Virus record (IMG/VR): IMGVR_UViG_3300009160_000035
Coordinates: 16,100 to 80,099 of that record
Strand: one strand, 5' to 3'
DNA from: a virus
Length of the DNA: 64,000 bases
The notes beneath the pieces are model-generated. The model was given only the letters and a program-made list of their open reading frames with translations. It had not been told where the DNA came from and did not search any database. Below, one piece after another: positions 28,701-45,864 of the stretch (its first letter is position 1; every line of letters starts with the position of its first letter). Made by a program: the position numbers and the translations under genes.

Positions 28701-29723
28701 CGCAAATAGCATAGAATACTTTGCGCCTTCTTTCTGGCTGTAAACTCTTTGTCCAGACTTTAACTCTACATAACCCTTATCTTGGAGTTGCTTTTGTAGT
28801 TCTTGAATTCTAGCTTCGCTTATAATCTTGTCCCCTGTGGGACCTTCTCCGTATTCTTCATAAAATTCACTAAGCCAAGGAAACTTGCCACTAGCCCAGG
28901 TACCAAATCTTTGCTTAAACTCAGCCTCGCTTCTTGGAATATAACTAAAGCTTCTAAACGTAGCTTTTCTACTTCCGTCTGGGGCATCTTCTACATCTCT
29001 AATAATTGCCTCAGGTACAAGATTCATTGAAAGAAAACCTTGTGCCATTTGCTCTTTAGGAGACATTCTCTCAATGGCGTCTGTTGCGCCAAGTGCAGCA
29101 GTATGATCACTTGCACCAACTGTTTTCTTTAACTCGTCAAGTCTAGCCATGTCACCCATAGCTATCTGAAGAATTGGAGCATCCTTAAAAAGACCACCAG
29201 TTTCAATGTCAATAATTAAAGCATTCTTGACAATATCATCTAACTTAAAATTAAATCCTGCCATTGCCATAGCTTCAAGTTTTAATTGCTTAATAGCTGT
29301 GCTTGTTAGTCCACCAATCATCTCAGAAGGCCTTGCCTTATCTTTGCCAACGGAGAAATTAGCCATTTGCTTGCCAACTTCTCTGTACATTCTTACTGCA
29401 TCTTTCTTTACCTCATCTGTGTAAGAAAAGAAATTATCAGTATTCTCTGTTCCTATCAAGGTTTCCATAGTTGTGACAATCTTTTTATTGGCACCACTTA
29501 TGTCATTGATAAACTTTGTAGCACCAAGAGTTGCCTTATAGGTACCCTTAAGTATTGACGTAGAAAGAGTAAAAGTTCCACGAACCGCAGCATCTACACC
29601 AGATATAAAGTTAGTATGGTCGTACTTGCCTTTAAGCGCAGTGATAGCTTTAATAGGATCAGCATCAGGATTAACAAAGTAATCCTTTAAGGTATATACC
29701 TTATCTCCTTTCCCATCTGCCAT
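25767..29723 (-). CDS. Giant virion-region protein with DEDD exonuclease-like and SNase-like domains
   Basis: A 1318-residue protein. Residues ~168-190 (NALIIDIETGGLFKDAPILQ) match motif I of DnaQ-type DEDD exonucleases. A later MAANLPYESFRVGKLWEHF resembles motif II (with Glu where Asp is usual), and motif III is not obvious. Residues ~1074-1220 match staphylococcal nuclease: GDADTVEI, VRLSGIDAPET, TFGRSVGIV, VNQGLATILYR, AERVARASNKGLF. They keep the three catalytic positions R1103, E1111 and R1155. Gly/Ala hydrophobic segments occur near 985-1010. Two nuclease-like domains in a gene ahead of the packaging genes suggest an injected protein that degrades host DNA or processes phage DNA. That role is inference. 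Confidence 0.7.
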   Translation of the reverse strand: MADGKGDKVYTLKDYFVNPDADPIKAITALKGKYDHTNFISGVDAAVRGTFTLSTSILKGTYKATLGATKFINDISGANKKIVTTMETLIGTENTDNFFSYTDEVKKDAVRMYREVGKQMANFSVGKDKARPSEMIGGLTSTAIKQLKLEAMAMAGFNFKLDDIVKNALIIDIETGGLFKDAPILQIAMGDMARLDELKKTVGASDHTAALGATDAIERMSPKEQMAQGFLSMNLVPEAIIRDVEDAPDGSRKATFRSFSYIPRSEAEFKQRFGTWASGKFPWLSEFYEEYGEGPTGDKIISEARIQELQKQLQDKGYVELKSGQRVYSQKEGAKYSMLFAKEGSKQGRTLMAANLPYESFRVGKLWEHFLTQKGSGVQDAFEPSLENHGNYLNKDKDVVKAFGGKITSLRDMRSMLSATWRSERKRNILDANNFFFTEQARVLKEQGKNEDLISLLPAYVKNVSAGLNTRDQLDLTKMAFSGLMQTGLIETSGDVASGTNINLASQIILGFDEAHKALSDVMVQGRLLQEGKLGEVVSDISNIYRGKESGSALDQVRSVISSLSILGDSKKLGWLELAKVKDTNLEIDSSWLGDDPLGSRQGSVKTSQLRGVTRGTHSELTRSYNLDKELLRLSETVDSYTGVSGGLYAPNPAKMITHTYTDEAGALQTINVNPAMHEAFSMPMAVGKVKHTMLTGSGTEVSVLKTQSDWNIQNFIRDEYQRELSSATSSEVDLRFGPGTFENLQGLGHSTEDIISNYLNTPGPSSPVLTLEEMQTSARSKVKKTLIKRYAEGDNLKAKGINAEDLETRLGTLKSGLSSRHAAGTLFSQEQIKTLGEQGISVTPNMSEDEVSRASLALRMSGADGFKKDMDSALMPVLQGIKDRLGPTSVAQRASSAADFLYEAISERKKELVATGEYSTPKVQTPNYETVGKVYNFATSAKDKLKLGIDTLGSVLFSPRGLESGLLSKMSGASPEISEYIMKNAGRGIRMMGGAGIIAAGVSGNYMLDMPSYKPTTKDILKMSGDERKIYNPEDVRGSQSGGMKNVMVATNTNIDKMNPAGFAVSAIDSSKVDYAVGDADTVEIISKGFMGIGQRKLGSVRLSGIDAPETAHEGFGGPGEMPFSQPGKQYLSNVLSARSGATVAVGQGSTFGRSVGIVTDDSGINYSYEMVNQGLATILYRNSAQEDLVSQKQFNAAERVARASNKGLFADPFYAGVHVGVGGKERKGYNVLSPSNAYKFKFDRSPGTSKQQAIEASQARNEEMSYAMDMSYNDYNEIFHSVNALSSNRKNVMADMQTVAMAGGLERNRGRRKERR

Positions 29724-31058: not shown

Positions 31059-31513
31059 ACTAAAGTTTAAACTTTACTAACTTGATACCATAAGAAACCA
31101 TAAGAAACGCTATACATGGGAAAAAGAACTACGTGAGGGGGAAAGGGTCATAGGCTTAGGGCAAAAGGCCTTTATATATATTTTTATATATTTATATATA
31201 TTTTTTATAGAAAAGAGTGAAAGGCCAAGTATTAAGGTATAGGTACAGCCTCTATTTATATATATATTTTTTTTTCGGAAAAGAGCGGGTACTTATACTC
31301 CTGGGCCCCTATACTTACCCATACCCTATTCGTTTTTAGCCCACCCCCTTTTAAGACTATGTACTAAGGGATGAGGGTCTTTCCAACTCTCACCAACTGC
31401 TAGCGATTCCGCTAGCTTTGGACATCGCCCCCACAAGGGCAGTAAGGAACGCCATGTGCACGCTCGCACAAACCCCTACCACCATCACCAACACCATCAT
31501 CAATAACAAGACT
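31059..31513. promoter_or_regulatory. AT-rich divergent control region between left and right arms
   Basis: No convincing gene lies here until the plus-strand operon starts. It contains a perfect 16-base palindrome TAAAGTTTAAACTTTA (31061-31076) touching the start of the minus-strand operon. A direct repeat of ACCATAAGAA occurs twice (about 31087-31106), followed by long TATATA runs (31167-31206, 31255-31275), each preceded by AAAGGCC. A perfect inverted repeat GCTAGC-GATTCC-GCTAGC lies at 31399-31416. Divergent promoters, and possibly an origin, are expected. I could not assign -35/-10 pairs with confidence. Confidence 0.55.
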
Positions 31514-31552
31514 ATGAATAATAACACTCATAGCAACAACAAGGTGACTGTC

Positions 31553-33613
31553 ATGACTAGCCTGATCAACGTTCTTTTCAATAGCAATAACCCCAGCTAC
31601 CAGGCTGATAACGAGGTGGACGCCATGTCGAATAAGATTCAGTATACGAATGAGTATGAGGTTGACCTCAATAATAATCACCCGGTGTACAGTGATGTTA
31701 CCGAAGATGCGCAGTTTGAGGCTGAGATTGAGGCCCTGTACGAGGATGACAGCGAGATGCCTGTGATGAGCACTGCTAGCATGGAGGCTATCATGGCCTT
31801 TGCTGCACAGCAGGCTTGGGTTAAGAAGGATGTCAATAACAACGTCAATTCCGACGTTAATGAAGAGGATGTCATGAAGAACGAGGAGAATAAGATGTTT
31901 AGTATTGTACCTGTGTTGGCCATTGCTAGTGCAAACATGACTCAGGATAGGATCATGATTGTTATCGCGTTGATTGCCATGGTTGTCGCAATGATTGCTG
32001 CAGTTGTTGCTATGTTCTGGTATGAGAACAAGCAGAAGACTGATAAGCTTGCTAAGCAAGTGCGCAAGATGGCTGCTGAGAGTGAGCAGCAGCGCATGCA
32101 TGACGCCTTCTACATGATGGAGCGTCGTGAGCGTAACATTGCATATGCGCGTCAGCAGGCGTTGGATCAGGCAGAGCGCATTGCTCGTCTTGAGCGTGAA
32201 GCTGCTGAGCATGAGGCGTGGTGCCGCCAGGAGGAAGAGCGCGAAGCTCAGCGAATTGCACGCAATGCCCGGCTTTCCCTTGAAATCGCAGAAAGACAGC
32301 GCAAAAATCTTGAGATGCAAGCAGAACTTGGCTGTAAGCAGAGCGCAGAGACGATGAAGTACCAGGACTTTATCAAATCGATCGAAAACGCTACCGATAT
32401 TAATGCCCTCTGGACTATGTTTGATACGCAACTCAAGGAAGAGATTACTTTTGAGTCCTTTATCAAGGCTGAAAAGAATCTTCAAGAGTCTGCGGACTAC
32501 AGTTTCTTCTACAAGAATGCTAGTATTCAAGGCATCCGTTCGTACTGGCTAATGCTGGCTAACGTTGACGAAAGCAATCGTAATGCTGCGGCCTATAACA
32601 ATTTGGCCATCAAGTTCTCAGAATTTGCTCGCGCTCTCGAAAAAGCCATGAGAAATAGCGAAAATGAATACTACCACTTTATCTGCCAAACAAATTGGCA
32701 GCATGGTTACAACTGGCAGGCCTATCGTATTCTCACGAAGGCTGAGTGGCAAGCGGCAAAGTTGCTCATTGAGAAGAAGACCATTCAATTCTTTAGCCGC
32801 TGGTGCTTGCCGCTTAATGACGCGGCAACAGGTGGTTTGCTCGTTGCTATGAGCAAAGACGCTGCTTTTGCTGACGAAATGCATGCAATGAAGACTGAGG
32901 AAAACTTCTGGTGCAGCAAAGAAATGAATGCTGAGAAAAACCTCTGGAAGGCTAATCAGTGGAAGACTTATGCTCAGCGCTATAACAAGGTCAAGCAGCT
33001 CAAGGAAGACTTGATGCCTATCTTTGCTCTTGAGGAAGTTGCAATCTGCAAGCTTACGACTGACGTTGTTGTTGGCTTCAAGTTTGGTAGCAAAGAATTC
33101 AAGAGCTGTGACGTAGCTGACACTGAGCAGGTTGAGAAGATTCTTGCTGCTGGCTACGATCAGGTTCTTCGTATTCGTCGTACGGATGCCGCTGGTATGT
33201 GGAATGAGTCTCAGCAGATCAACAGCAAGTACACGGGTAAGTTCTGCACCGGTCATGGCACTCAGCAGAGCCATGGTTACTACCAGGAGAAGTTCCTCAA
33301 TGGTACGAATATCCCCTGGATTGCAGACATCCAGATCAACGGCGAATGGGATAACTTTGGCGTTATCCTTACGAACAGTGCTGGTGTTGTTGACTTCGGT
33401 ATGGGCGATAACAACCGCAGTAGCAAGCACCGTCCTATTCTGATTGGTATGTTTGGTGACGGCGAAAGCTCGGAGACCAAGAAGACCCCGGGTCAGATTG
33501 AGGCCATGAAAATCTCTAACACCTGGTTTATCCAGCGTGAATTCAATATCAACCATGTTGTGGCGCAGATCAAGGCTAAGCTTGCTGCCGATAGCTACAA
33601 CGATGTCTGGTAA
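31553..33613 (+). CDS. Membrane/coiled-coil protein with shared C-terminal domain
   Basis: I choose ATG 31553 after AACAAGGTGACTGTC. In-frame alternatives are ATG 31514 (part of the repeated start module) and TTG 31418. From 31553 it is 686 residues. Asn-rich acidic N-terminus, then a strong membrane segment (IMIVIALIAMVVAMIAAVVA, near 135-155), a long Glu/Arg/Gln coiled coil (~165-265) and a helical middle with many Trp. The C-terminal ~150 residues include INSKYTGKFCTGHGTQQ and FGVILTNSAGVVDFGMGDNN, which align with the protein at 39479-41455. First gene of the GC-richer central operon. Function unknown. Confidence 0.65.
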   Translation: MTSLINVLFNSNNPSYQADNEVDAMSNKIQYTNEYEVDLNNNHPVYSDVTEDAQFEAEIEALYEDDSEMPVMSTASMEAIMAFAAQQAWVKKDVNNNVNSDVNEEDVMKNEENKMFSIVPVLAIASANMTQDRIMIVIALIAMVVAMIAAVVAMFWYENKQKTDKLAKQVRKMAAESEQQRMHDAFYMMERRERNIAYARQQALDQAERIARLEREAAEHEAWCRQEEEREAQRIARNARLSLEIAERQRKNLEMQAELGCKQSAETMKYQDFIKSIENATDINALWTMFDTQLKEEITFESFIKAEKNLQESADYSFFYKNASIQGIRSYWLMLANVDESNRNAAAYNNLAIKFSEFARALEKAMRNSENEYYHFICQTNWQHGYNWQAYRILTKAEWQAAKLLIEKKTIQFFSRWCLPLNDAATGGLLVAMSKDAAFADEMHAMKTEENFWCSKEMNAEKNLWKANQWKTYAQRYNKVKQLKEDLMPIFALEEVAICKLTTDVVVGFKFGSKEFKSCDVADTEQVEKILAAGYDQVLRIRRTDAAGMWNESQQINSKYTGKFCTGHGTQQSHGYYQEKFLNGTNIPWIADIQINGEWDNFGVILTNSAGVVDFGMGDNNRSSKHRPILIGMFGDGESSETKKTPGQIEAMKISNTWFIQREFNINHVVAQIKAKLAADSYNDVW

Positions 33614-33656
33614 TACAATGAAAATCAACACCCTCAACACCAACAAGGTGAACGTC

Positions 33657-34367
33657 ATGAATAAGATTACTGAAGAAATCGCCGTTTCGGCTAAGATGGA
33701 GGAAACCATGAAGACTATGCGTGTTATTCACTGGACTGCGCCTAACTTTGGCGACATCATTGCTAAGGATGGCGTTCCCGCAATGGAAGTCACCAATCAC
33801 CTTCACCCGGAAGGAAAGAAAGTGATGGGCACTTGGGCTGTTCCGGCAAATGCCAATCTGGATGCTTTCTGGGCTGCATACATTACCAAGAAGCACTCTT
33901 CGAGTGCTGTACAGGTAATCGCGGACGTTCCGATCTCCACTATCAAAGTCATGAAGGAAGGATTCCCGATTAAGTTCAATCTTGATCGTTGCAATGACCC
34001 TGTTATCTTTCGTGAGCTTGCTGAGCTTATGATGGACAACGACAACGGCCTGATCTGCTCTGAAGGTATCAAGCATGAGTGGATTGTTGAGGTCAACTAT
34101 GCAGTTGAAATCTACAAGCCTGAAATTATGCTTGCACGAGAAATCAGAAAGTCTCCTCCTTTTCGCGACTGGAAGCCGACTGGACTTGACTGGGAAGGCG
34201 GTTGTCCTGCTTGTTCTCGCGTCGGTGACTACCTGTTCGAAGGGTACGCTCAGCGCTTTGGTCTTTGCGACGACTATAGCCTCGCTCGCAACCGTTCCAT
34301 TGGCACAAAGGATGACAACTTTGACTTTATCGACCTTTTCGCCTGCGAAATCGTAAAGGTGTACTAA
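33657..34367 (+). CDS. Unknown protein with CxxC motif, central operon
   Basis: The start chosen is ATG 33657 with AACAAGGTGAACGTC. An upstream in-frame ATG at 33618 belongs to the same start module as the preceding gene. The product is 236 residues, mixed alpha/beta, without membrane segments. Near the C-terminus GLDWEGGCPACSRVGDYLFE and a further FGLCDDY give three Cys, possibly a metal site. A helical middle (VIFRELAELMMDNDNGLICS) precedes it. The stop TAA overlaps the ATG of the next gene (TAATG), so it is coupled to the first protease. I do not recognise the family. Confidence 0.55.
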   Translation: MNKITEEIAVSAKMEETMKTMRVIHWTAPNFGDIIAKDGVPAMEVTNHLHPEGKKVMGTWAVPANANLDAFWAAYITKKHSSSAVQVIADVPISTIKVMKEGFPIKFNLDRCNDPVIFRELAELMMDNDNGLICSEGIKHEWIVEVNYAVEIYKPEIMLAREIRKSPPFRDWKPTGLDWEGGCPACSRVGDYLFEGYAQRFGLCDDYSLARNRSIGTKDDNFDFIDLFACEIVKVY

Positions 34368-35710
34368 TGAACACCATCGACAATTCTGTCGTCAACAAGG
34401 AGTCTGCTATGTCAATTGCATTCGTCATTTTTGCCATCCTGGCTATCATCACCGCTGTCTGGAAGGGGTCTGTCATGAACAAGTTTGTTGCCAACAAGGA
34501 GTCCGTCATGCTTGTCGTTAGCAAGAGGTCCATTGGGCTTGCGTTCAGCATTGTCTGCACTGCAGCTCTCTTCATTCCCTACGCCCTTGTGGCTACGTTC
34601 CAGGATATGGTCGTGTGCACTCTCGCACTTGCCCCCTTGGCATTTACTGCCATTGATATCCTCATCCACGTTGAGTACCATGACGATGTGCGCAGCATTG
34701 CACTTGCAACCAACGCCTTCCATAATCTGAAGGTTAACGAGGCTCTTGTGAAAGCTAACTATGCGGAAATGATGGCAAAGATTGCAACCTTCCTTCTCCT
34801 CGTAATCACTACGGCTTGCGGTACCGATGCTAAGCCTGAGATTGAAAATGCGCAGTCGACCGCTAATGCTGTTACTAATTATGAGCAGGTTGATAATACT
34901 GCTAAGGCCTATGGCAAAATTGAGTCTCCTGTATACAAGGACGGTGAAGTTCTGTACGGCACCTGCAGCGCATGGAAATGGAACGGTAAGACCTACACCA
35001 TCCAGCACTGCAATGACTACCTGGAAAAGCACGGCAACACAGACCGCGTCCAGCAGTCAACAGCCGATAACACTATCTCTGGTGACTTCTACAAGGAAGG
35101 TACAGAGTGCAGCCCTGATATCCGCTGGTGGGGCACAACCACCAATAAGTGGGTAACTATTCCTATGGAGCAGATCTTCAAGAAGACAAGAAACTATCTT
35201 GGTGCTCCTTACGAAATGCAACAAGAGCTTATTGACTCTAAGTATAAGGCTATTGCCGCTCTTAACGATTACAAGTACACAATCGAAGAGAACAGCATGA
35301 AGACTAATAGCGATAATACGAAGAAAGCAAAAGAAAAAGCACATGCAGCGTTCAACAAATTCTACAACCAGTTGAAGTACATCAAAGAGCACTACACAAG
35401 CCAAGAGTATCTCTGTGCTTCTTCTGTGGCGGAAGATAGCATCAAGAAGGGTGACTCTGGTGGCCCCATCATGCTTGGTGACGAAGTCATTGGTAGTGTC
35501 TCGTTTTTCGTTCGGACCGACAACCAGATGTTTGATGACTTCTATCCGGAAGCTCATAGCAACTATCAGGTCTCTTGCTTTGCTATGGTTGACAATAAGC
35601 CGGTTGCATCGCCGTTCATTGATGAAATGGCGTCAAGCTACTCGGATATCTTTAGCGATTACACGAATGTCTTTGACATCATTGAAATGCTGGGGTGGAC
35701 TCATGAATAA
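34367..35710 (+). CDS. Membrane-tethered trypsin-like serine protease 1
   Basis: 447 residues from the TAATG start. The repeated start module gives further in-frame ATGs at 34409, 34475 and 34508. The first ~150 residues hold several membrane segments (AFVIFAILAIITAVW, GLAFSIVCTAALFIPYALVA, ALAPLAFTAIDILI) and then TFLLLVITTACGTDAK, which looks like a lipoprotein signal. The rest is a chymotrypsin-fold protease: KTYTIQHC (His214), ECSPDIRWWG (Asp251) and KKGDSGGPIMLGDEVIGSVS (Ser364), with paired Cys that suit an extracytoplasmic domain. It is followed by a paralogue overlapping by 8 bases. Trypsin-fold enzymes are rare in phages. The substrate is unknown. Confidence 0.85.
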   Translation: MNTIDNSVVNKESAMSIAFVIFAILAIITAVWKGSVMNKFVANKESVMLVVSKRSIGLAFSIVCTAALFIPYALVATFQDMVVCTLALAPLAFTAIDILIHVEYHDDVRSIALATNAFHNLKVNEALVKANYAEMMAKIATFLLLVITTACGTDAKPEIENAQSTANAVTNYEQVDNTAKAYGKIESPVYKDGEVLYGTCSAWKWNGKTYTIQHCNDYLEKHGNTDRVQQSTADNTISGDFYKEGTECSPDIRWWGTTTNKWVTIPMEQIFKKTRNYLGAPYEMQQELIDSKYKAIAALNDYKYTIEENSMKTNSDNTKKAKEKAHAAFNKFYNQLKYIKEHYTSQEYLCASSVAEDSIKKGDSGGPIMLGDEVIGSVSFFVRTDNQMFDDFYPEAHSNYQVSCFAMVDNKPVASPFIDEMASSYSDIFSDYTNVFDIIEMLGWTHE

Positions 35711-36854
35711 CGTTACTGTTCTAGACATTGCTGCTAACTCAACAAACAAGGAGAAGGTCATGGACAACTGGGAAGAAATGCAACAGGCCGAGCTTAAGGC
35801 GTACCGTGAGAGGGAGGACAAGATGAAGAAGGCAGACCGCCGCGAGAACATCCTCTTTGTGCTGGCAATGGTTGCAATCTTTGCAGCCTTTGCTGGTATC
35901 TTTGTGACCATGACGGGTAATAACACCCGCCTTCGCCAGGAAGAAGCTGCTGCGGCACGGAAGGAGGAAATCCGTCAGGCAGAGTGGGTTGCTAACAGCG
36001 ACTATTACGAGGTTGTTCAGGAAGTGGAAGAATTCCTGGAAGAGAAGTACCGGGCAGAGAACAACATCCACCCTGGAATTGGTCCTGTCAACACCAGGGA
36101 AAATGAAGGCCCCCTTGATGAGAGCGGGAACTGCACTGCATGGAAGTGGAAAGGTAAGATCTACACGGCAGAGCACTGCACACGTAACGGTTACCGTGAA
36201 AACGCTGGCGATATCGTTGTGCCGGCTGACCATTATCCTAACGAAATCAAGGAAGATCTCTATGAGATTGGTCTTGAGTGCAGCACTGACTTCCGTTGGT
36301 GGGGTAAGACCACAGACATGTGGGGTTATGTGCCTTTTGAGCAGGTCTTTGACCACATGAAGAAGGGTACGCCTAGCATGAAAGAGCAGAATGACATGAG
36401 ATGGGCATTCATTGATGCCAGAAAAGCACTTGAGGATGTAAGTCTGAAAAGCCCCGAGGTTATCTTCAAGAATCTTGTTGATACCTACAAGAGGTACATT
36501 GCAGGCGCTAGCAACCAACGCTTTATCTGTGCTGCCAGCCTCAGCCTTGAAGTTTCTCCTGACCATGGTGACTCTGGTGGGCCTTTGATGGCCGGCGATG
36601 AAGTGATTGGCTTCGTATCTTATGCGGAAAGCCCTCAGCGCCAAGCCCTTGGCACAGGTGATGCTGAAGACTTTCAAGTCAAGTACAATGATGCCTTGTA
36701 CATTGGCCAAACTGACTGCTGGGGTAGCTTGGACCGCAGCAAGGATACGGTAAACCTGGCTTACGCCAAGGAAAACATGGAATGGTACAAGGACCTTTAT
36801 CAACAGTTCCTGCTTAAATACGGGCAGGAGACTATCAGCAACTGGGAGAAGTAA
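35703..36854 (+). CDS. Membrane-tethered trypsin-like serine protease 2
   Basis: 383 residues from ATG 35703. The start module's second ATG at 35760 follows AACAAGGAGAAGGTC and may be the main start. A cytoplasmic charged N-terminus leads to one membrane helix (ILFVLAMVAIFAAFAGIFV, ~50-68), then a coiled linker and a protease domain outside: AWKWKGKIYTAEHC (His158), ECSTDFRWWGKTTDMW (Asp196) and HGDSGGPLMAGDEVIGFVSY (Ser291). It is clearly a paralogue of the preceding gene (shared AWKW-GK-YT--HC and DxRWWGxTT). About 95 residues, largely helical, lie between Asp and Ser. All triad residues are present, so it should be active. Confidence 0.88.
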   Translation: MNNVTVLDIAANSTNKEKVMDNWEEMQQAELKAYREREDKMKKADRRENILFVLAMVAIFAAFAGIFVTMTGNNTRLRQEEAAAARKEEIRQAEWVANSDYYEVVQEVEEFLEEKYRAENNIHPGIGPVNTRENEGPLDESGNCTAWKWKGKIYTAEHCTRNGYRENAGDIVVPADHYPNEIKEDLYEIGLECSTDFRWWGKTTDMWGYVPFEQVFDHMKKGTPSMKEQNDMRWAFIDARKALEDVSLKSPEVIFKNLVDTYKRYIAGASNQRFICAASLSLEVSPDHGDSGGPLMAGDEVIGFVSYAESPQRQALGTGDAEDFQVKYNDALYIGQTDCWGSLDRSKDTVNLAYAKENMEWYKDLYQQFLLKYGQETISNWEK

Positions 36855-36855
36855 C

Positions 36856-37026
36856 ATGATTGTCGTCCTGTTTGTCCTAATTTTCCTCCTTATTAAGGGG
36901 GAGATGACCGCCAAGGTTGCAGCTAACGCTGAGGCCAAGGCTATTGAAAAGGCTGCTGTCAAGAAGGCAGTGGCTCGCCGTTTCCGTCACTCCCGCATCG
37001 GCCGCATTGGCCGGCGTATCCACTAG
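36856..37026 (+). CDS. 56-residue membrane protein with basic tail
   Basis: ATG 36856 to TAG 37026. The N-terminus is a membrane helix (MIVVLFVLIFLLIKG), then an Ala/Lys helix and an Arg-rich tail (RRFRHSRIGRIGRRIH). It begins two bases after the protease 2 stop codon, within the same operon. The orientation should place the basic tail in the cytoplasm, where it could bind nucleic acid or lipid. An upstream AACTGGGAGAAGTAAC supplies a ribosome binding site. No family is recognised. Confidence 0.6.
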   Translation: MIVVLFVLIFLLIKGEMTAKVAANAEAKAIEKAAVKKAVARRFRHSRIGRIGRRIH

Positions 37027-37136
37027 TGCCTAGGGAGAACGTCATGGATAAGCAAATGAATGTATCTATTTGTACTATTACAAAGGTTGTTCCAATGAAT
37101 GATATGAAGATTGATAGGCCTACCAAGGAGATTAAA

Positions 37137-39482
37137 ATGGAAAAGGTTTTCGTTGGCGATATTCACGCACGTCCCTCTCTCGTCACTTCTGCCATTGAGA
37201 TGGCAAACGGCAGAGACATTATCTTCCTCGGAGATATCTTCGATGGGGAAGGTGGCGCACAGGGTGCCAAGGATTGCCTTGACATCATTCGTGCCTCTGG
37301 CTCGGAGCTCATCTTGGGCAACCATGAGCTGTATCCTCTCTTCTTTGGCAATAGCCAGGAAGAATTGACAAAGGCTTGGAGCCTGCACTATAACCTGGCA
37401 GACGAAGACTATGTACGCATCTGGAATGAGTGGTGCAAGCTTCGTGCTCTACTTACGGAGGACGATATGGTCTGGTTGCGCTCTCGGCCTCTATGGGTCA
37501 AGGACACAACCTGGACGGCTGTCCATGCCAAACTTCCAGCTGGTAAATTGCCTCCTAGGTTTGTCAAAGGTAAGCCGACTGCAGCCCAGATCGAGCTTGT
37601 TGATAACACTGACCCTGATAACTTCTGGGCCAAAGATTACAAGGGTAAGCACGGGCTTGCTATTGTTGGTCATACTCGTCGTTCAAAGATTCCTCAGGGG
37701 CAATGCTCTTGGGATCATGTGCGCCTTATTGACTGGGATGCCAAAAAAGGTGGTCCTGGTTGTGTCTATGTGCTAGAGGAGGACAAGATGAGTGAGATTG
37801 TGAACCAACCTGAACCAACACCCCCACCGCCACTGGAGACTACAATGGCAATGAAGATCGCGCTCGACGCACTCATCCGCATGCTTACCCACGATGTCAA
37901 GATTGCCGCAATGTGTGGCATCAGCGACACCGGAAACCCGCACTACACGGAGCGCCCCATGAAGAACAAGAAGTCCCGTCCACCCAAGGATATCGTCATG
38001 CGTAACAAGTCCAAATCCCCCCGTCCTCCAAAGGATCTCGTCATGCGTCAGTCTCGTATGTCCCGCCGGTCTCGCCGTCGCCTCCTTCACCTCTGGCGCA
38101 AGCGTGCCGGCATCCGCTTCCACGGCGTGTCGGTCCCCCGCCCCGAGGTCCAATACATCTACACCGAGAGCTACAAGGTTGGGGGTGGCCGCAAGAGCGG
38201 TCACGTCGGCGGCTGGTCGATTGGCCTCATTGGTCAGCGCCAGAAAGAGAAAGCAACGGGGCCGGCGAACAATCGACCTGGCACTGCCCTTCGGAAGCTG
38301 CTCGCCAAGAAGGCAAACCGCGCCAACCGCTACACTCGCCCCGAGACTGCGGTGAAGATCGAGGTTGCTCAGCGCAAGGCTAAGGCCAAGCGCAACGAGC
38401 TTCCCATCCTTCGTGCACAGGCCAAGCCGTTCGTGGCAAAGCCTGTGGTCAAGAGCGCCGCAAAGGTCAAGGTCGTCCGTAACAACGACTACTTGGATGC
38501 CACCCGCCTCGTCAAGGCAGCATTCGGGCCTCGTTCGGCGAACACGGGGGTCAAGACCCTCGACAAGACCGTTCGCACCGCTCGTCGTGCTGCTGCCGCA
38601 CGGCTCAGCTCCTTCTGCCGTTTTTGGAACGTCAATGAGGTCGGGGTGCGCTGGGCTGATCAGAACCCTGCCCAGATCGCCAACCAGAGTGCCACTGCCA
38701 AGGCTGCGCGTCTTGCTGTCGAAGCCGAGGTAAAGGCTGCACAGGCTGCAGTCCTCGCCAAGGTGGACGCCGAGAAGAAGGCCGTCAAGGCCAAGGTCAC
38801 GGCAATCCGCGCTGCAATCGCTGCACGCAAGGCACAGGAGCTCTCGGAGGCTCGCGCTGCCAAGAGCGCCAAGGCGGCAACTCGCAAGGCCAAGGCTGCG
38901 AAGGCAAAGGCAAAGGTCAAGGCCGTGATCAAGGCCAAGGCTGGCATCACGACGGTCACCACGGTTGCGCCGACTGCTAAGCCTGCTGCTGCCAAGGTTA
39001 TGGTCGTCATGACCAAGCCTGAGGCCGCTCCCAAGGCTGAGGTCAAGCCTGCCGTCAACGCACCCGCCAACGCACCCGCCAAGCCCCGTCTGGGCACCGG
39101 CTGTTCGTTCGTCTCGCTTCCTCACAACCTCCGGAAGGAGATCGCTGTGGTGAAGTTCGGTCGACCTGCTGCGCCTGCACGTGAGCATGCCCAGGTGACC
39201 ATGTCTGACCTCAAGGCTGTGGCCAAGTTCCGCAAGCCTGTGGTTGCAACTGTGCCTATGGCCGACGCAGAGCCGCGTCCTTCCTTGCTTCTGCGACTGT
39301 TCGAGTTGCTTCCTGCGGTCAATCCTGCGCCTACAGCGCTCACGATTGAACAGGCTGCTGACTTGTTCATTGACGTAGTGATCGGTAAGAAGACCGAACT
39401 GCGCAATGACATCCAAGTTAGCCGGAAGATTAATCATGGAATTGTTAACTGTGCCAAAGTGGCAAAGGGGGTAAATCAATGA
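37137..39482 (+). CDS. Metallophosphoesterase fused to histone-H1-like Lys/Ala tail
   Basis: I choose ATG 37137 after ACCAAGGAGATTAAA. The frame is open upstream to 37026 with weaker starts at 37044 and 37095. Of 781 residues, the first ~215 are a calcineurin-like phosphoesterase: VGDIH (D8, H10), FLGDIFDG (D33, D36), LILGNHE (61-64) and IVGHTRR. From ~217 on the sequence is basic and repetitive. It starts with PPKDIVMR and PPKDLVMR repeats, then runs of KAKAAKAKAK, EVKAAQAAV and PAKP, as in bacterial H1-like DNA-binding proteins. ATG 37788 follows AGAGGAGGACAAG, a strong internal start that would make the 564-residue basic part alone. The basic part is markedly GC-rich compared with its neighbours. 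Confidence 0.75.
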   Translation: MEKVFVGDIHARPSLVTSAIEMANGRDIIFLGDIFDGEGGAQGAKDCLDIIRASGSELILGNHELYPLFFGNSQEELTKAWSLHYNLADEDYVRIWNEWCKLRALLTEDDMVWLRSRPLWVKDTTWTAVHAKLPAGKLPPRFVKGKPTAAQIELVDNTDPDNFWAKDYKGKHGLAIVGHTRRSKIPQGQCSWDHVRLIDWDAKKGGPGCVYVLEEDKMSEIVNQPEPTPPPPLETTMAMKIALDALIRMLTHDVKIAAMCGISDTGNPHYTERPMKNKKSRPPKDIVMRNKSKSPRPPKDLVMRQSRMSRRSRRRLLHLWRKRAGIRFHGVSVPRPEVQYIYTESYKVGGGRKSGHVGGWSIGLIGQRQKEKATGPANNRPGTALRKLLAKKANRANRYTRPETAVKIEVAQRKAKAKRNELPILRAQAKPFVAKPVVKSAAKVKVVRNNDYLDATRLVKAAFGPRSANTGVKTLDKTVRTARRAAAARLSSFCRFWNVNEVGVRWADQNPAQIANQSATAKAARLAVEAEVKAAQAAVLAKVDAEKKAVKAKVTAIRAAIAARKAQELSEARAAKSAKAATRKAKAAKAKAKVKAVIKAKAGITTVTTVAPTAKPAAAKVMVVMTKPEAAPKAEVKPAVNAPANAPAKPRLGTGCSFVSLPHNLRKEIAVVKFGRPAAPAREHAQVTMSDLKAVAKFRKPVVATVPMADAEPRPSLLLRLFELLPAVNPAPTALTIEQAADLFIDVVIGKKTELRNDIQVSRKINHGIVNCAKVAKGVNQ

Positions 39483-41455
39483 GTAAGATGACCAAAAACA
39501 TGACCACCGAACAGAAGGAGGCCCTTATGAAGGCCAAGCAAATGCGTCTCGAACAGCGGCAATATATTGCCAATGAGATCCAGCCTGAAATGCCTGGGTT
39601 CTCGCTGTCAAACCTGATGAGTGTGCGTAAGCGCATCATTGCTCTAAAGGAGCAGGGAGTTGACATGTACCGCATTCGGTGCTTTGGCTCTGAGCGTCAG
39701 GTTAAGTGGTCGCCGCCGACGGGCCGGACCAAGGTGATCAAGGTAAAGGTCATGAATGTTGCGGCATTCAACAAGTTTGCCAGTATCCTCCTTGCCAATA
39801 AGGAAATGATGGCCTGGTTCAAGGAGGTTACTCATGAGCCTACCTGGGAGACCTTCTTCCAGGACATTGCCAAGCTGGCCAAGAAGAAGAATTGTATTGA
39901 AACATGGTCAGCTGCCGAATGGCACGTTGTTCGCAATCGGTACACTAGCACAGTTGAGCTTGTGAATAGCTTGTCTGTCAAGTTCCTGGGCGCGGTCATC
40001 GGCGAGGCATCCCTCAAGACCTGTGAAGTAACGGCTCTCTTCAACAAGGAGACGTATTACTTCCGCTGGGTTGATCCCCAGCAGGCGTGGGATGAATGCA
40101 AGAGCATCAATTCACGCTACAAGGGGCACTTCTGCGTTGGTGGTGGCACCTATCAACAGCAGATGAAGTCTGGACAATACCACGGCTATATTGTTGATAA
40201 AACAGTAGATGCCAAGACGGGCACCGATGGCAACGGGAATAAGTTCTCGTTTGGCTTTGTCCTGACTGCTGGCGGTGGTGTCTCTGACTGGGGCTTTGGC
40301 AATGAAAACCGCTGGGATGGCCAAGAAGAGCAACTTGCCAAGCAGGTGTTTGGAGAGGCCAAACTCAACCCCAATGGCCCTGAAGAGAAGTGGATCAGAA
40401 TGATCCTTACGTCCTGGTACAAGATGCGGAAGATGACCTATAACGAATGGGTATCGGAAATCGAACGCATTACAGAGTTTGCAAAAACCACTGACGTGTA
40501 CGAAAGTGGCGAGATTGCTCACTTTGGCAAAAGAGAGGAAGTTCTTACTTGGTCAAAAACTGGTAAGACTTGCATTCAAAACCTTGCCTGTGGAAGAGCA
40601 GTTCGGAATACATACCTGTGCGACAAGGGTGTATTTAGAGTCGAACTCGTTAATCGTGTTGTGGTAACCGCAACTGGCTTTGTAGAACAGGCTGTACCTC
40701 AGAACAAAAGGTACCAAAGGTTCTATCTGACCAATGTGGACAGCACGAGCCAAGCATATTATCATATGCTACGGTATCTGCAGCTTTTCAAAGCTAGTGA
40801 ATGTAATGGTATGTATGCTTATGACTTGCATAATCTTGCGAATGAGCAGAGTGGTACCCTTTGGACTGACTGCAACCGTCCGGACTTGGATTGGGGGTAC
40901 TTCGAAGACGAGTATCGTCAAAAGTGGGAAACAACAGAATATGGGATGCTTCCGCACCTTGCTGGTCTGTCTTTCCCGGAATTCAAGGCTCGGTACCATG
41001 CAGAGCTTCAAGAAAGCAAAGCCTCGCGTGCTGTCTACTCGCTGAAGACAAAACTACCAATGGCAAACTCTGAGTTGCGAGCTCAGGTTCACATGTTCGA
41101 TAAAATCGACATGAATCTTCGTTTGTCCATGGTGCAGACGGATGTATCGGACAACAAGAAGGGTTCGTCTAGGAAGCAATTAGCCGGACTAGATCTGGCG
41201 ATAAAGCTCTTTTTCGACTTCGGTTACGACTGGATGAAGACCAAGTGCGGCTTTATGTTGGTTCATCCTGAGATTGCAAAAGCTAATCCTCATCGGATGA
41301 TGACTGCCGAAGAACGTGCAATGCTTAACTACACAGACTGCAACTCAAAGCATACATCAACTCGTGAGGGTTGGGACTCTGGCTTCAAGATGGAGACAGT
41401 ATCAGTAGTTGCTCCGACTCTTCCTGTTGTTACAATGGATATGGGCGAATGGTAG
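39479..41455 (+). CDS. Unknown protein sharing a domain with the first gene of the operon
   Basis: 658 residues. The start overlaps the preceding stop (ATGA). The N-terminus is charged and helical. Residues ~200-300 contain AWDECKSINSRYKGHFCVGG and, later, FSFGFVLTAGGGVSDWGFGN followed by ENRW. These correspond block for block to INSKYTGKFCTGHG and FGVILTNSAGVVDFGMGDNN in the protein at 31553-33613. The conserved Cys, His/Gly turn and Trp/Asp positions suggest a small enzymatic or binding domain. I cannot name it. The C-terminal half is mixed and aromatic-rich. No membrane segments, so it should be cytoplasmic. Confidence 0.6.
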   Translation: MSKMTKNMTTEQKEALMKAKQMRLEQRQYIANEIQPEMPGFSLSNLMSVRKRIIALKEQGVDMYRIRCFGSERQVKWSPPTGRTKVIKVKVMNVAAFNKFASILLANKEMMAWFKEVTHEPTWETFFQDIAKLAKKKNCIETWSAAEWHVVRNRYTSTVELVNSLSVKFLGAVIGEASLKTCEVTALFNKETYYFRWVDPQQAWDECKSINSRYKGHFCVGGGTYQQQMKSGQYHGYIVDKTVDAKTGTDGNGNKFSFGFVLTAGGGVSDWGFGNENRWDGQEEQLAKQVFGEAKLNPNGPEEKWIRMILTSWYKMRKMTYNEWVSEIERITEFAKTTDVYESGEIAHFGKREEVLTWSKTGKTCIQNLACGRAVRNTYLCDKGVFRVELVNRVVVTATGFVEQAVPQNKRYQRFYLTNVDSTSQAYYHMLRYLQLFKASECNGMYAYDLHNLANEQSGTLWTDCNRPDLDWGYFEDEYRQKWETTEYGMLPHLAGLSFPEFKARYHAELQESKASRAVYSLKTKLPMANSELRAQVHMFDKIDMNLRLSMVQTDVSDNKKGSSRKQLAGLDLAIKLFFDFGYDWMKTKCGFMLVHPEIAKANPHRMMTAEERAMLNYTDCNSKHTSTREGWDSGFKMETVSVVAPTLPVVTMDMGEW

Positions 41456-41460
41456 AAAAC

Positions 41461-44400
41461 ATGAAACAGAACGTAACCATTTTGGTTACTGACAAGGAGG
41501 GTACTATGTACCGTAGCTATCGAGAGCATCTCGAGTATTCCGGGGTTAAGAGCCCCTATTCCGATCTTCCGGGCTTTGAAAGCCTCCTCGACCACCCTGT
41601 GGTTGAGAAAGGGCAGAAATGCCCGGACGGTCACGTTGCCCTCTTTGCTGTTAGCAGCATGGAGACGCTGATGGTGCCTAAGGCGCTGAAGGCAAAGCTT
41701 GTGGGTTCTGTTGGGTATACCAGCAAGACCGCTCAGAAGGGCCGCAAGTATGCGCGTTCCATGATGACGGCCACCTACAGCGCCATCGTATCTGCAACTG
41801 GCAAGGTTGTAGACATGGCTGACTTGGATCCTGCCTACAAGGCAATCCAGGACGGTGTCCACTACATGGGCACTGCAGAGCTCACCCCTGGCCCCATGAC
41901 GCAGGGCATGCAGGTTCGCCGTGTGGTTAAGCTCGAAGCGTACTATAAGGGCGCAATGGGTGCGGTCAAGCTTTGGCTTCCGCCCCATGTCTTCCTGCTG
42001 AGCTCCGAAGGCAAGCAGGATCTCAAGCCTGATCTCTCTCCCGATGTTGCGCTTATGGTGCAGCCGACCGTTGGTGAGATGAAGTCTGAGCCTGGTGTCC
42101 TTCTCGGCGTCCAGAACTTGAGCGCCCTGTTTGGTCAGGTGCTCAACGACCCGAAGTTCCATGCGATCCTCAACGAGATGATTGACTGGAACATCTCGCA
42201 CTGGGATGACTACGTCAAGAATGCCCTTAAGGGTCTCGATGGCGACGTCCTTGAGGCAACGGAAACGTCCTCAACATTCAAGGCAAAGATCACCAAGATG
42301 CTTCTTAGCCTTGGTGTTCACCCTGGCGCAATTCCTGCTACTGTGACTACTCTAGTCAACAGTGTCAGCGAAGACGTTACGCAGAGCAAGCTTCGCATCA
42401 ACGCGGTTACAAAGGACGGCCCTTGTGGCTTTACCTCGTATCCCCGCGCTCTTGTCTGGCGTATGTTCCGTGACCTGTGGCTCCATGAGGAGAAGCAGGG
42501 TGCCTTTGCAAACGAAACCGCTGGCCTGAAGAAGCGTCGTCTTCTCATCATGGCTGAGCTTGACCGCAAGGCAAAGATCGAGGAAGCGTTCAACGCCAAG
42601 TCGGAACAGATCCTTGCCAAGACGGGATTTGCGGCAATTGCTATCACGGCAGAAGCTGCGAAGAACCTCAACGTTCCTGCTCTTAACATCCATGATGTGA
42701 AGGGTGAGAACGAGAAGGAGCTTGCCGTCAACCATCGGGATAGCCTTGGCGCTGCGGCTCGTTGGCCTACTTCGGCTAAGGTCGATGTGCGGGTTATCTA
42801 TGTTGTCCTTAAGGACGACATGTTCCTGCACGCTACTGCATACTTCGGCAGCACGGAGATCATGCAGAAGGCTGTCCTTGTTAGCATGGACGGCGGTGAC
42901 GCTGACGACAAGGCGTTCTTCCTGTGCGGTAAGCTTGGCTTGCTTGCGCTGCGTTCTATGAACCTGCGTAACTACAAGCTGAGCCAGTTCACCGTTCAGC
43001 AGGTCCAGGATACTTACGAGAAGGCACACACCTTCCTTGCTAAGCTTCCTGAAAAGCTTGATCTTGTGAACACCATTCCGAATGGTCACAAGCTGCTGTC
43101 GTCGTACTTTGATGTCAAGACGGTCGAGACTGTCTCGCCTTCTGGCTTGATCAAGTACAACATTACGGCCCTTGCTGAGAAGGCTCAGCCTGCAGATCCT
43201 TCGGTTGCCGACAAGACTGCTGAAGAGAAGTGGGACATGATTCACCTTCCTGGTGATAACGAGTTCATGCCCATCGTTGGCGCAATGGCAAATGCTCAGA
43301 TGTTCGGCAGCTATCTGCTTGCTGACCTGATCATTCTGCCGTCGGTAGTCAAGACTCCATCCGCCCTTCTTGCAGCTTGCATGATGGAAGGTGAGATCTC
43401 GCTGGTGGTCGATGCTGCTCAGAGCGGCACTGACTTCCCCGGCGCTTGGCGTGCATGGCACAACATCGACGCTATCATGACGATGATTGCTGTCAGCTGG
43501 GTACTCAACGACCGCAATGCGATGCGTGAGAATCCCGATGCTAAGCCTAGCAAGATGACGGCCCTTAAGCCTGTGCGCAAGCGGCTTGGTGTCAGCCTTC
43601 TTTCGCTTGTAACTGCACCTGTTGCTGTGCGTTACACGGGAGAAATCTCCGAGATCACGGGCGAGAACATCATTGCTCCTGCCTTGTTCAAGGACGAAGA
43701 GGGCAAGATCCCGATGACCGCTAAGATCTGCCAGAGCCTTCGTCAGACGGTTGTCACGGCAGATGGTCGGTCTGTCAAGGTTGAGCATCCCATCATCCGC
43801 AGCTTCACACGCTACTGGAAGACGATGACCTCGAACCTCAAGTCGTTCATCGATGAGGGTCACAGCACTCAGACTGCTACTCTCCTGACCTCCAATCTTC
43901 AGGCGTTCCTTGAAGAGCACTCGCATGAGCTTGATGAGCTGATCAGCAAGCACTACCGGGATGAGCAGGAGCAATACGAGGGTGAGTTCAATCTCACGAC
44001 CTTCGGCTCCTTCATGTTCCGTAAGTATCATGCGGTCAATCGCTACAGCCAGGACAATGGTCACATGATGACTGTGCCTGAGGCAATGAAGCATCGTTAC
44101 GAGGAAATCGACAAGGTTCGCTACATGATGAACGCTGAAGAGCTCAAGACCCTTCGTCGGGTTTACGCTCAGAAGCCCATCCATGCAGCCTTCGCAGCAC
44201 GTCACGAGGATCTCTGGCCTCTCTTCGAAGAGGTCTACGAGGATAAGGCTGAGTACAAGTACGAAATGTTCGTGCTTTCTGAGCTGATGTCCGCTCTCGG
44301 TACGTCTGCGGAAAAGCCTATTACTCTGTCCATGGGCAAGGGTAAGGTCGAGTTCCTTGATGACGAAGAAGGCAACAAGACAAAGATCATCGACTCTGAC

Positions 44401-45864
44401 GCCATCGACGCGCAGGGTGAGCTTACCTCCAGCGGTGGTTACAGCCGCAAGATGTACTTTGCCTCGACCGGTAACTACAAGGGCTACGCAGAAGTTCTCT
44501 GCAAGTTCCTTGAGGATGCTGCCGTGAAGAAGACTCAGGATAAGCTTCTTGCTGCCGACGTTCGCGCCGCCTTCCTCATTCGTGAGAGCAAGGATGGCAA
44601 GACTGTTGATCCTCAGTCGCTTGTTGGCCTCAACATCCAGCAGCTCCTCAGCGACAACCGCATTCAGCTTGCATACGGTGGACAGCGCGGTAACCCTGAC
44701 CAGGACCATCGCGCCGCCGCAGTTGCTTACTTGGTCTTCCGCAAGACCAGCGAGACGCGCAAGGCATTCGAGAACAACGGTGCCTTCAAGGGCAAGACTC
44801 AGTGGCAGATTGCCGGCATGATGGGCTACCACGGTACTCTCAACAACTTCTTCAGCGGTGCTACCGTTGAGGCAAGCGAAGTGGAGAAGCGTGACGGTCA
44901 TGGTGCCAACGGCAAGACCTACACTCGTAACTTCGTCTGGCTGACCTTCAAGGGTCAAGAGCCGGTCAAGCCCGAGCCTCCTCCCGAGAAGGAGTTCTTC
45001 GATATCTCTGTCTCTGAGAATATCGACTACGACAAGATGCTGGAGAGCGCAGGCATGGCAGACTTCAACTTTGAAGATGCCTTTGGTTCTGAGAATCCAG
45101 TCAGCGCTGAAGAGCTGGAGCAGTATGCTAGCGAGTACGACAGTGACGAGGAAGAGTCTGAGACTCAAATCTTCAGTGAAGTACTTGAAGGCACGTACAC
45201 TGCGGCACAGCCTGTACAACTTGTAATGGTCAACGGCAAGTGGCAGCCTAAGAACATGGCAGATGTCAATTGGGTCCCGGTTGACGCTCCTGCTGTTGAA
45301 GCCAAGCCTGCTCCTGCTGTGCCTGTTGTTGCCGTGGAAGCAAAGCCCTACAGGATTGCATTCACTGGTCATCGCCCCGAAAAGATTGGCGGCTATGACG
45401 AGAATCATCCTCTGCGTGTTGCTGTAAAGAATGCAATCGCAGATGCATTAAAGCGTGCCATTGCCAAGTACAGTGCAACTCGTGAGATCATCGTCGTTAC
45501 TGGTGGTGCTCTTGGCGTTGACACTGATGCCGCACGTGAGGCTCACAAGCTTGGCCTCAAGTTCATCGTGGCTCGTCCTTGCAGCGACCATGGTGATTAC
45601 TTCAAGGGTGACGAAGCTAAGATGCGTTACAAGAAGATGCTTGCTCTTGCTCATCAAGTTGTGCTTGTCAATAAGAAAGGCTACGACCTTGCAGGCAAAG
45701 AGAAGTGTCTCCACGCACGGAACTACTGGATGGTTGATAACTGCGAGGCGGTTGTCGCAATCTGGGATGGTTCTCCGAGTGGCACATCCAACTGTGTCAA
45801 CTACGCCAAGAAGGTCAATCGTCCGATGATTATCATCAACCCGAACGACCTTGCAAAGAAGTAG
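41461..45864 (+). CDS. Giant protein with C-terminal SLOG (YpsA-like) domain
   Basis: 1467 residues from ATG 41461. The start module's second ATG at 41506 follows GACAAGGAGGGTACT and may be preferred. Residues 1-~1170 are mixed alpha/beta without recognised motifs or membrane segments. An acidic linker (YASEYDSDEEESETQIF) and a Pro/Ala/Val linker follow. Residues ~1297-1467 are a Rossmann-like SLOG domain of the YpsA/YspA kind: YRIAFTGHRPEKIGG, IIVVTGGALGVDTDAAREA, HARNYWMVD and VVAIWDGSPSGTSNCVNYA. SLOG domains bind nucleotide-derived ligands and occur in conflict systems and nucleotide hydrolases. The large N-terminal part may be the effector. Codon use is even and GC-richer than in either arm. 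Confidence 0.75.
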   Translation: MKQNVTILVTDKEGTMYRSYREHLEYSGVKSPYSDLPGFESLLDHPVVEKGQKCPDGHVALFAVSSMETLMVPKALKAKLVGSVGYTSKTAQKGRKYARSMMTATYSAIVSATGKVVDMADLDPAYKAIQDGVHYMGTAELTPGPMTQGMQVRRVVKLEAYYKGAMGAVKLWLPPHVFLLSSEGKQDLKPDLSPDVALMVQPTVGEMKSEPGVLLGVQNLSALFGQVLNDPKFHAILNEMIDWNISHWDDYVKNALKGLDGDVLEATETSSTFKAKITKMLLSLGVHPGAIPATVTTLVNSVSEDVTQSKLRINAVTKDGPCGFTSYPRALVWRMFRDLWLHEEKQGAFANETAGLKKRRLLIMAELDRKAKIEEAFNAKSEQILAKTGFAAIAITAEAAKNLNVPALNIHDVKGENEKELAVNHRDSLGAAARWPTSAKVDVRVIYVVLKDDMFLHATAYFGSTEIMQKAVLVSMDGGDADDKAFFLCGKLGLLALRSMNLRNYKLSQFTVQQVQDTYEKAHTFLAKLPEKLDLVNTIPNGHKLLSSYFDVKTVETVSPSGLIKYNITALAEKAQPADPSVADKTAEEKWDMIHLPGDNEFMPIVGAMANAQMFGSYLLADLIILPSVVKTPSALLAACMMEGEISLVVDAAQSGTDFPGAWRAWHNIDAIMTMIAVSWVLNDRNAMRENPDAKPSKMTALKPVRKRLGVSLLSLVTAPVAVRYTGEISEITGENIIAPALFKDEEGKIPMTAKICQSLRQTVVTADGRSVKVEHPIIRSFTRYWKTMTSNLKSFIDEGHSTQTATLLTSNLQAFLEEHSHELDELISKHYRDEQEQYEGEFNLTTFGSFMFRKYHAVNRYSQDNGHMMTVPEAMKHRYEEIDKVRYMMNAEELKTLRRVYAQKPIHAAFAARHEDLWPLFEEVYEDKAEYKYEMFVLSELMSALGTSAEKPITLSMGKGKVEFLDDEEGNKTKIIDSDAIDAQGELTSSGGYSRKMYFASTGNYKGYAEVLCKFLEDAAVKKTQDKLLAADVRAAFLIRESKDGKTVDPQSLVGLNIQQLLSDNRIQLAYGGQRGNPDQDHRAAAVAYLVFRKTSETRKAFENNGAFKGKTQWQIAGMMGYHGTLNNFFSGATVEASEVEKRDGHGANGKTYTRNFVWLTFKGQEPVKPEPPPEKEFFDISVSENIDYDKMLESAGMADFNFEDAFGSENPVSAEELEQYASEYDSDEEESETQIFSEVLEGTYTAAQPVQLVMVNGKWQPKNMADVNWVPVDAPAVEAKPAPAVPVVAVEAKPYRIAFTGHRPEKIGGYDENHPLRVAVKNAIADALKRAIAKYSATREIIVVTGGALGVDTDAAREAHKLGLKFIVARPCSDHGDYFKGDEAKMRYKKMLALAHQVVLVNKKGYDLAGKEKCLHARNYWMVDNCEAVVAIWDGSPSGTSNCVNYAKKVNRPMIIINPNDLAKK

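Follow-up and report, generated by a model that had tools for sequence, protein, structure and literature searches.

In a 64,000-nucleotide (nt) stretch of DNA (hereafter designated the window), which is part of the 80,099-base IMG/VR virus record IMGVR_UViG_3300009160_000035, two tandem genes on the + strand encode predicted membrane-tethered trypsin-like proteases, P1 (34367..35710; 447 amino acids (aa)) and P2 (35703..36854; 383 aa from its ATG). They lie within a + strand operon at 31.4–45.9 kb that is divergent from the virion genes. Catalytic-type residues follow in the chymotrypsin order His-Asp-Ser in both proteins and were found exactly where a preliminary description of the window had placed them, namely at His214, Asp251, and Ser364 in P1 and at His158, Asp196, and Ser291 in P2. 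The two open reading frames (ORFs) overlap by 8 nt, and their products are homologous, with 33% identity (81 of 248 aa; E 2e-32), in agreement with the duplicated pair of overlapping genes reported in that description. Both proteins scored above the curated cut-off (20.6 bits) of the Pfam profile PF00089 (Trypsin), P1 with 27.1 bits and P2 with 31.6 bits, the match being limited to the Ser segment (profile positions 157–202 and 155–203 of 220, respectively). The motifs and the above-cut-off profile matches in both proteins bear out the presence of two trypsin-family (S1-like) domains. We consider the trypsin-family identity of P1 and P2 very probable and, only slightly less firmly, predict that both are catalytically active.

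Thirteen related records, several of which are short fragments among the seven without a hit, were searched with a protease-domain profile, and protease domains were found in six (G001, G002, G003, G008, G009, and G013). G001 (174,117 bases), G002 (49,443 bases), and G003 (176,231 bases) are close relatives of the window phage, and the terminases of G001, G003, G006, G007, G009, and G013 are 89–100% identical to that of the window. Nine domains representing five distinguishable lineages were aligned, that is, P1 and P2 of the window, G002, and G003, one domain of G013, and two of G009. The alignment contains 26 invariant columns, including the Cys preceding the catalytic His, the His-Cys pair, ECSxDxRWWG, GDSGG, and a Ser located 15 residues further on; the triad, GDSGG, and the Cys pair are invariant in all nine domains. 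The mean column identity is 39%, showing fast divergence outside the motifs. Ratios of nonsynonymous to synonymous substitution rates (dN/dS), estimated against two relatives, were 0.17–0.19 for P1 and 0.29–0.33 for P2, which indicates that both genes are under purifying selection. Moreover, a profile of the nine domains matched kallikrein 6 (E 1.2e-4) and a bacterial trypsin (E 1.2e-3) in the PDB through the Ser region, and in the same search a stretch scoring far below threshold (−3.0 bits) aligned the His box in register. The Pfam Trypsin profile exceeded its cut-off in 6 of the 13 related records, with 33.2 bits for the G013 domain and 22.9 bits for the second G009 domain.

In G009 (174,107 bases), the two protease domains are found inside one ORF of 3,763 aa. 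Its N-terminal part consists of two helices, a protease domain (about residues 85–330), a run of helices, a second protease domain (about 580–770), further helices, and a long basic region, and it continues with a stretch related to gene D of the window operon, a core, and a HIRAN domain. Gene D (39479..41455, + strand) is 28.6% identical over 602 aa to residues 1509–2063 of this giant, and the regions related to genes D and E stand in the same order in the giant as in the window. The fused domains are about 30% identical to P2, with the triad and GDSGG intact. P1 taken together with its helices finds its best match in the second G009 protease; the helix module of P1 is 44% identical (39/88) to that preceding the second G009 protease, and the protease that follows it is 38% identical (65/172). 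The start of the giant ORF immediately follows a stop codon, and the site is similar to that at window position 34409. Record G008 carries the same frame, identical throughout the 9,390 nt compared, and is thus regarded as the same phage as G009 rather than a second lineage. One continuous frame for proteases and partners occurs in G009/G008 only, in contrast to the separate overlapping genes in the window.

The G013 record has one protease gene, closest to P2, directly upstream of a 2,176-aa ORF of the giant family; this ORF aligns in frame with the core of the G009 giant at 48% identity over 1,269 aa. In a tree of the nine domains, the single G013 domain grouped with P2 (91/94), the G009 domains were left without a resolved position on very long branches, and no branch attained the tool's star level. 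The helix module common to P1 and the second G009 protease, rather than the tree, suggests that the pair is older than the split. A core profile built from the giants and gene E matched 8 of the 9 records searched, including all six that hold proteases, in both cases mostly by construction, as most of these sequences were used to build the profile; the ninth record, G010, probably ends before the locus, judging from the position of its terminase.

The preliminary description had also held that both proteins are tethered to the membrane with their protease domains outside the cytoplasm, and the hydrophobic anchors and flanking charges support this prediction. P2 has one transmembrane (TM) helix at residues 50–68, with seven Lys/Arg residues just before it and two just after it. 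P1 shows four hydrophobic peaks, distributed over the stretches 13–31, 47–84 (with helices placed by hand to about 103), and 133–151; the last ends in TTAC at Cys151, a lipobox-like end, and the corresponding G009 stretch ends in VLGGC. When helices were positioned manually on the assumption that the proteases are outside, Lys/Arg residues numbered 18 of 121 in inside loops and 8 of 142 in outside loops for the N-terminal 832 residues of the G009 giant, and 7 of 55 inside versus 3 of 47 outside for P1; the differences were small for P2 (10/49 versus 5/30) and G013 (5/57 versus 2/30). We regard the extracytoplasmic location of the protease domains as probable. A membrane-adjacent stretch, PLAFTAID..HVEYH (about residues 89–105 of P1 and 520–541 of the G009 giant), is among the best-conserved parts, and its H-x-E-x-H is kept in all four sequences that have it.

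The fold was examined with an AlphaFold model of P2 only, computed from nine sequences. In a second structural look at this model, chymotrypsin-fold proteases occupied 41 of the 50 rows shown, at Z scores of 5.0–6.5, which are below the tool's safe level, over model residues 105–348. They included flavivirus NS3, NS3-4A protease, picornavirus 3C, kallikreins, trypsinogen, and Rv3671c, with NS3 and 3C structures making up most of the rows; two further rows were poxin and P26, which we take to share the chymotrypsin fold. Against the fold assignment count the low confidence of the model (mean predicted local distance difference test score (pLDDT) of 53), the outcome of a Foldseek search of the PDB, which gave no match at E ≤ 0.001 and a bacterial trypsin as top match at E 1.2, and seven unrelated rows in the second look, five of which ranked at the top, above the proteases. 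The second look nevertheless points the right way, toward a trypsin-type fold. In this poor model the segment between Asp and Ser of P2 is mostly helical; the segment is also long in P1.

The remaining genes of the operon are all on the + strand. Gene A (31451..33613; analysed from 31517) encodes a membrane protein with one strong TM helix, and its C-terminal region shares with gene D a domain (26% over 217 aa; 31517-33613 versus 39479-41455) for which no convincing family match was found. Gene B (33618..34367; scanned from 33615), of 249 aa from its ATG with an upstream GTG also open, likewise gave no convincing family match; the end of its stop codon and the start of P1 share 1 nt. Downstream of P2 are a small ORF (36856..37026) that, from its sequence by eye, encodes 56 aa with one hydrophobic helix followed by a basic tail, and gene C (37026..39482), which encodes a calcineurin-like phosphoesterase domain (PF00149; 23.2 bits, cut-off 21.5) and a long basic region. 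After gene D comes gene E (41449..45864; analysed from 41371 or 41452), which has a C-terminal YspA SLOG domain and whose core is weakly similar to the giant of G006 (23% over 753 aa; E 2e-24). Between gene E (45280-45852) and the G013 giant, the YspA/SLOG regions are 78% identical and the cores only about 20%; a recent domain exchange possibly lies behind this pattern.

Conserved DG...R....KG, RxPT, and G(G/M)DxDD motifs occur in the giants of G009, G013, and G006 and in the gene E core (window 41452-43770), and we take them to resemble those of two-barrel RNA polymerases, a resemblance that no test confirmed. RNA polymerase identity of this core was not supported: there was no Pfam polymerase match and no PDB sequence match at E ≤ 1, the AlphaFold model had a pLDDT of 42, and the second structural look gave no row at Z 5. 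Comparison by hhalign with gp64 of Thermus phage P23-45 and the 2,180-aa protein of Cellulophaga phage phi14:2, which we take to be the RNA polymerase of that phage, gave nothing, a weak negative since the targets were single sequences and there was no positive control.

Ribosome-site-like AGGAG sequences precede in-frame ATGs at window positions 34409 and 34508, possible true starts of P1, at 35760 in P2, and at 37137, 39527, and 41506, lying 15–48 codons into most operon genes; thus, the true gene starts may be downstream of those given here. The in-frame pattern AGGAG-N(5-8)-ATG was counted against 500 synonymous codon shuffles. It occurred 8 times in the window operon (5.1 expected; 34/500 shuffles as high), 3 times in P1 and P2 alone (1.35 expected; 52/500), 5 times in the G009 giant (2.7 expected; 16/500), once each in the giants of G013 (319/500) and G006 (295/500), and twice in minus-strand genes (211/500). 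These counts are suggestive only, and internal ribosome sites were discarded as proof of fused cistrons.

The window phage is a tailed phage, as it encodes a terminase (15653-17791), a portal (11410-12939), and a major capsid protein (4298-5581), all on the minus strand. The G+C content at third codon positions (GC3) is 0.55–0.63 in the operon genes and 0.50 in the capsid gene, compared with 0.22–0.34 in 16 other minus-strand genes and 0.24–0.49 in 11 + strand genes located downstream. In codon usage, the operon resembles the capsid gene (r 0.74) and hardly the other minus-strand genes (r 0.08). This bias probably reflects selection for strong expression, foreign origin being a possible alternative cause. 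Since the operon is divergent from the virion genes, we take it to be expressed early. The intergenic region between the divergent operons (31060-31450) contains TATATA-rich runs and is likely their control region. A 1,318-aa protein encoded on the minus strand (25767-29723) contains a Staphylococcal-nuclease domain (PF00565), and its N-terminal part has an exonuclease-like match in PHROGs.

Protease-query scans of viral contigs, including one whose query was the first 844 aa of the G009 giant with both its proteases, reached only the six protease-holding records named above. Queries with the P1 and P2 cores found no relative among 50,697 records of named phages, one 25-residue match at E 1 being discounted; the P2 core matched no plasmid at E ≤ 10, and scans of GTDB genome contigs gave no relative. 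PADLOC gave no convincing match for P1 or P2. The rarity in phages asserted earlier for complete trypsin folds therefore holds for this subfamily, to which the count applies and not to other trypsin folds.

We conclude that the protease pair formed by P1 and P2 is genuine and unusual and is best understood as a component of an operon for giant proteins. Both are probably active endoproteases that belong to the chymotrypsin/trypsin (S1, PA-clan) type of serine protease, are tethered to the cytoplasmic membrane, and expose their catalytic domains on its outer side. Their operon, which probably directs abundant synthesis, encodes a set of large, partly membrane-embedded proteins as well. Because their equivalents, the helices, and the partner regions form one 3,763-aa polypeptide in the sister phage G009, the proteases may belong to a membrane-bound phage complex; the fusion, the overlapping genes, and the linkage in each holder record suggest that they serve the giant or its split parts. 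As the proteases are predicted to be outside, the cuts would fall in extracytoplasmic loops and might release or activate parts of the complex. In the window lineage the polyprotein would have been resolved into overlapping genes, with the corresponding cuts, where still required, being made in trans. Among the functions listed in the preliminary description, the one that receives most support is the processing of an operon partner, since the sister phage fuses two proteases to a giant related to the operon, and nothing specific was found for receptor removal or lysis timing. We accordingly lean toward partner processing in a membrane-bound phage complex, as a tentative preference only.

Several observations weigh against partner processing. 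G006 and G007, which look alike, have at the locus a giant-family open frame of 2,266 codons with no protease found, so that the giant does not need the proteases; the window lineage retains the proteases although their partners are already separate genes, and the predicted topology leaves only outer loops accessible, the cytoplasmic parts of the giant being beyond reach. The fusion ORF is known from one phage only (G008/G009), and its correspondence with the window operon is uneven: gene C matches giant residues 1154–1402 weakly (E 5e-4) in repetitive sequence, the gene E core matches the giant weakly (24% over 256 aa; E 6e-5), and the first G009 protease domain alone had no Pfam match. P2 matches the first (E 1e-19; 74/239 identical) and the second (E 3e-17) G009 protease nearly equally, and the protease order differs, as the second-type protease comes first in the window. 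The gene pair, the motifs and their conservation, the linkage, the fusion ORF, and the codon bias are direct observations; catalytic activity, location, the complex, and the substrate are inferred from them.

Since giants without proteases exist and proteases persist with separate partners, host envelope targets are nearly as likely as partner processing. The proteases, early and abundant, would then degrade proteins of the host envelope or periplasm, such as receptors, transport proteins, or proteins of envelope stress or defence, a prospect we treat as a serious possibility, and the giant neighbours could, with similar plausibility, be explained as fellow early take-over functions. The predicted extracytoplasmic location and the capsid-like codon usage of the operon fit such a role; physical fusion to the G009 giant and tight linkage wherever the domains were found favour a phage partner instead, and the early timing is deduced from the divergent orientation of the operon relative to the virion genes. 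As a tandem of paralogous, membrane-tethered enzymes, the two proteases might also act as regulated membrane sensors of the DegS type, cutting one phage or host membrane protein upon a signal in a two-step cascade, and the long, in the P2 model mostly helical, Asp-Ser segment would suit this. We consider it unlikely, as the HtrA-type profile PF13365 matched none of five related records at E ≤ 1, three of which hold proteases, although it did match all 14 control genomes, and Pfam, PHROGs, and NCBIfam gave no convincing sensor domain in P1 or P2.

The fast divergence outside the motifs and the higher dN/dS of P2 would be compatible with pseudo-proteases serving as scaffolds or binding domains; with the triad and GDSGG invariant in every aligned domain, even the two fused ones so distant from P2, this is very improbable. 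Still less credible is that the giant fused ORF is an assembly artefact uninformative for the window: the contigs are all metagenome-derived, but the uninterrupted frame is repeated in two records from differently numbered datasets, the G013 giant aligns with it in frame, and GC3 is 0.62 across the G009 giant. Partner processing, in turn, has a more far-reaching and rather improbable form, in which a tailed double-stranded DNA phage would use an RNA-virus-like polyprotein, a giant membrane-spanning precursor being cut by two embedded chymotrypsin-type proteases into an early membrane-bound replication or take-over complex, with overlapping genes and proteases acting in trans in sister lineages. 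If active, P1 and P2 would constitute a phage-encoded trypsin-type pair working outside the cytoplasm, probably at an early stage of infection. The fused G009 form provides a direct test case for a DNA phage making and cleaving a polyprotein. Moreover, because split and fused forms of one operon occur in phages with 89–100% identical terminases, the origin of polyproteins from operons is open to experiment.

Among known systems, the S1 family, represented by kallikrein 6 and Saccharopolyspora erythraea trypsin, shares with P1 and P2 the His-Asp-Ser order, GDSGG, the later Ser, and the Ser-region match in Pfam and the PDB; we take the Ser after GDSGG to be Ser214-like and the Cys pair around the His to resemble Cys42-Cys58. 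Unlike that family, the group of P1 and P2 has, by eye in the alignment, neither an IVGG-type activation end nor a Cys191-like residue beside GDSGG, carries an N-terminal membrane anchor and, in P1, P2, and the first G009 domain, a long Asp-Ser insertion, and aligns significantly only in the Ser region. HtrA/DegS is a membrane-anchored trypsin-like protease outside the cytoplasm, as is predicted for P1 and P2; unlike HtrA/DegS, these gave no PDZ match when scanned with Pfam. Phages and conjugative elements also encode polyvalent proteins, which are likewise very large and multidomain and may carry a peptidase, of zincin-like, assemblin-like, DD, or LonC type (Iyer et al. 2017, PMC5512222); neither "trypsin" nor "transmembrane" appears in the main text of that paper. 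No polyvalent-type Pfam peptidase was matched in the window operon genes or the scanned giant parts; for the G009 giant, the N-terminal 2,877 aa were for the most part scanned with PHROGs only. The 5,002-residue gp96 of Thermus phage P23-45 is a fusion of a tape-measure protein and an RNA polymerase (PMC10770324). It resembles the G009 form in being a giant fusion protein of a phage that includes a peptidase and transmembrane segments and differs in that its peptidase is a metallopeptidase and that it is a tail structural protein, the present operon being divergent from structural genes.

A literature search, with most subscription papers outside its reach, turned up no title or abstract dealing with trypsin-type proteases in phage polyproteins. 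The polyprotein proteases of RNA viruses (flavivirus NS3, picornavirus 3C, and nidovirus main protease) are likewise chymotrypsin-type domains in a long polypeptide; in G009 the domains are flanked by membrane helices. These chymotrypsin-fold enzymes act in the cytoplasm, in contrast to the predicted outside location of the proteases of this double-stranded DNA tailed phage, and the likeness is one of layout, not of membership. The fusion of two such proteases in one giant membrane protein is a layout known from RNA-virus polyproteins and unexpected in a tailed DNA phage.

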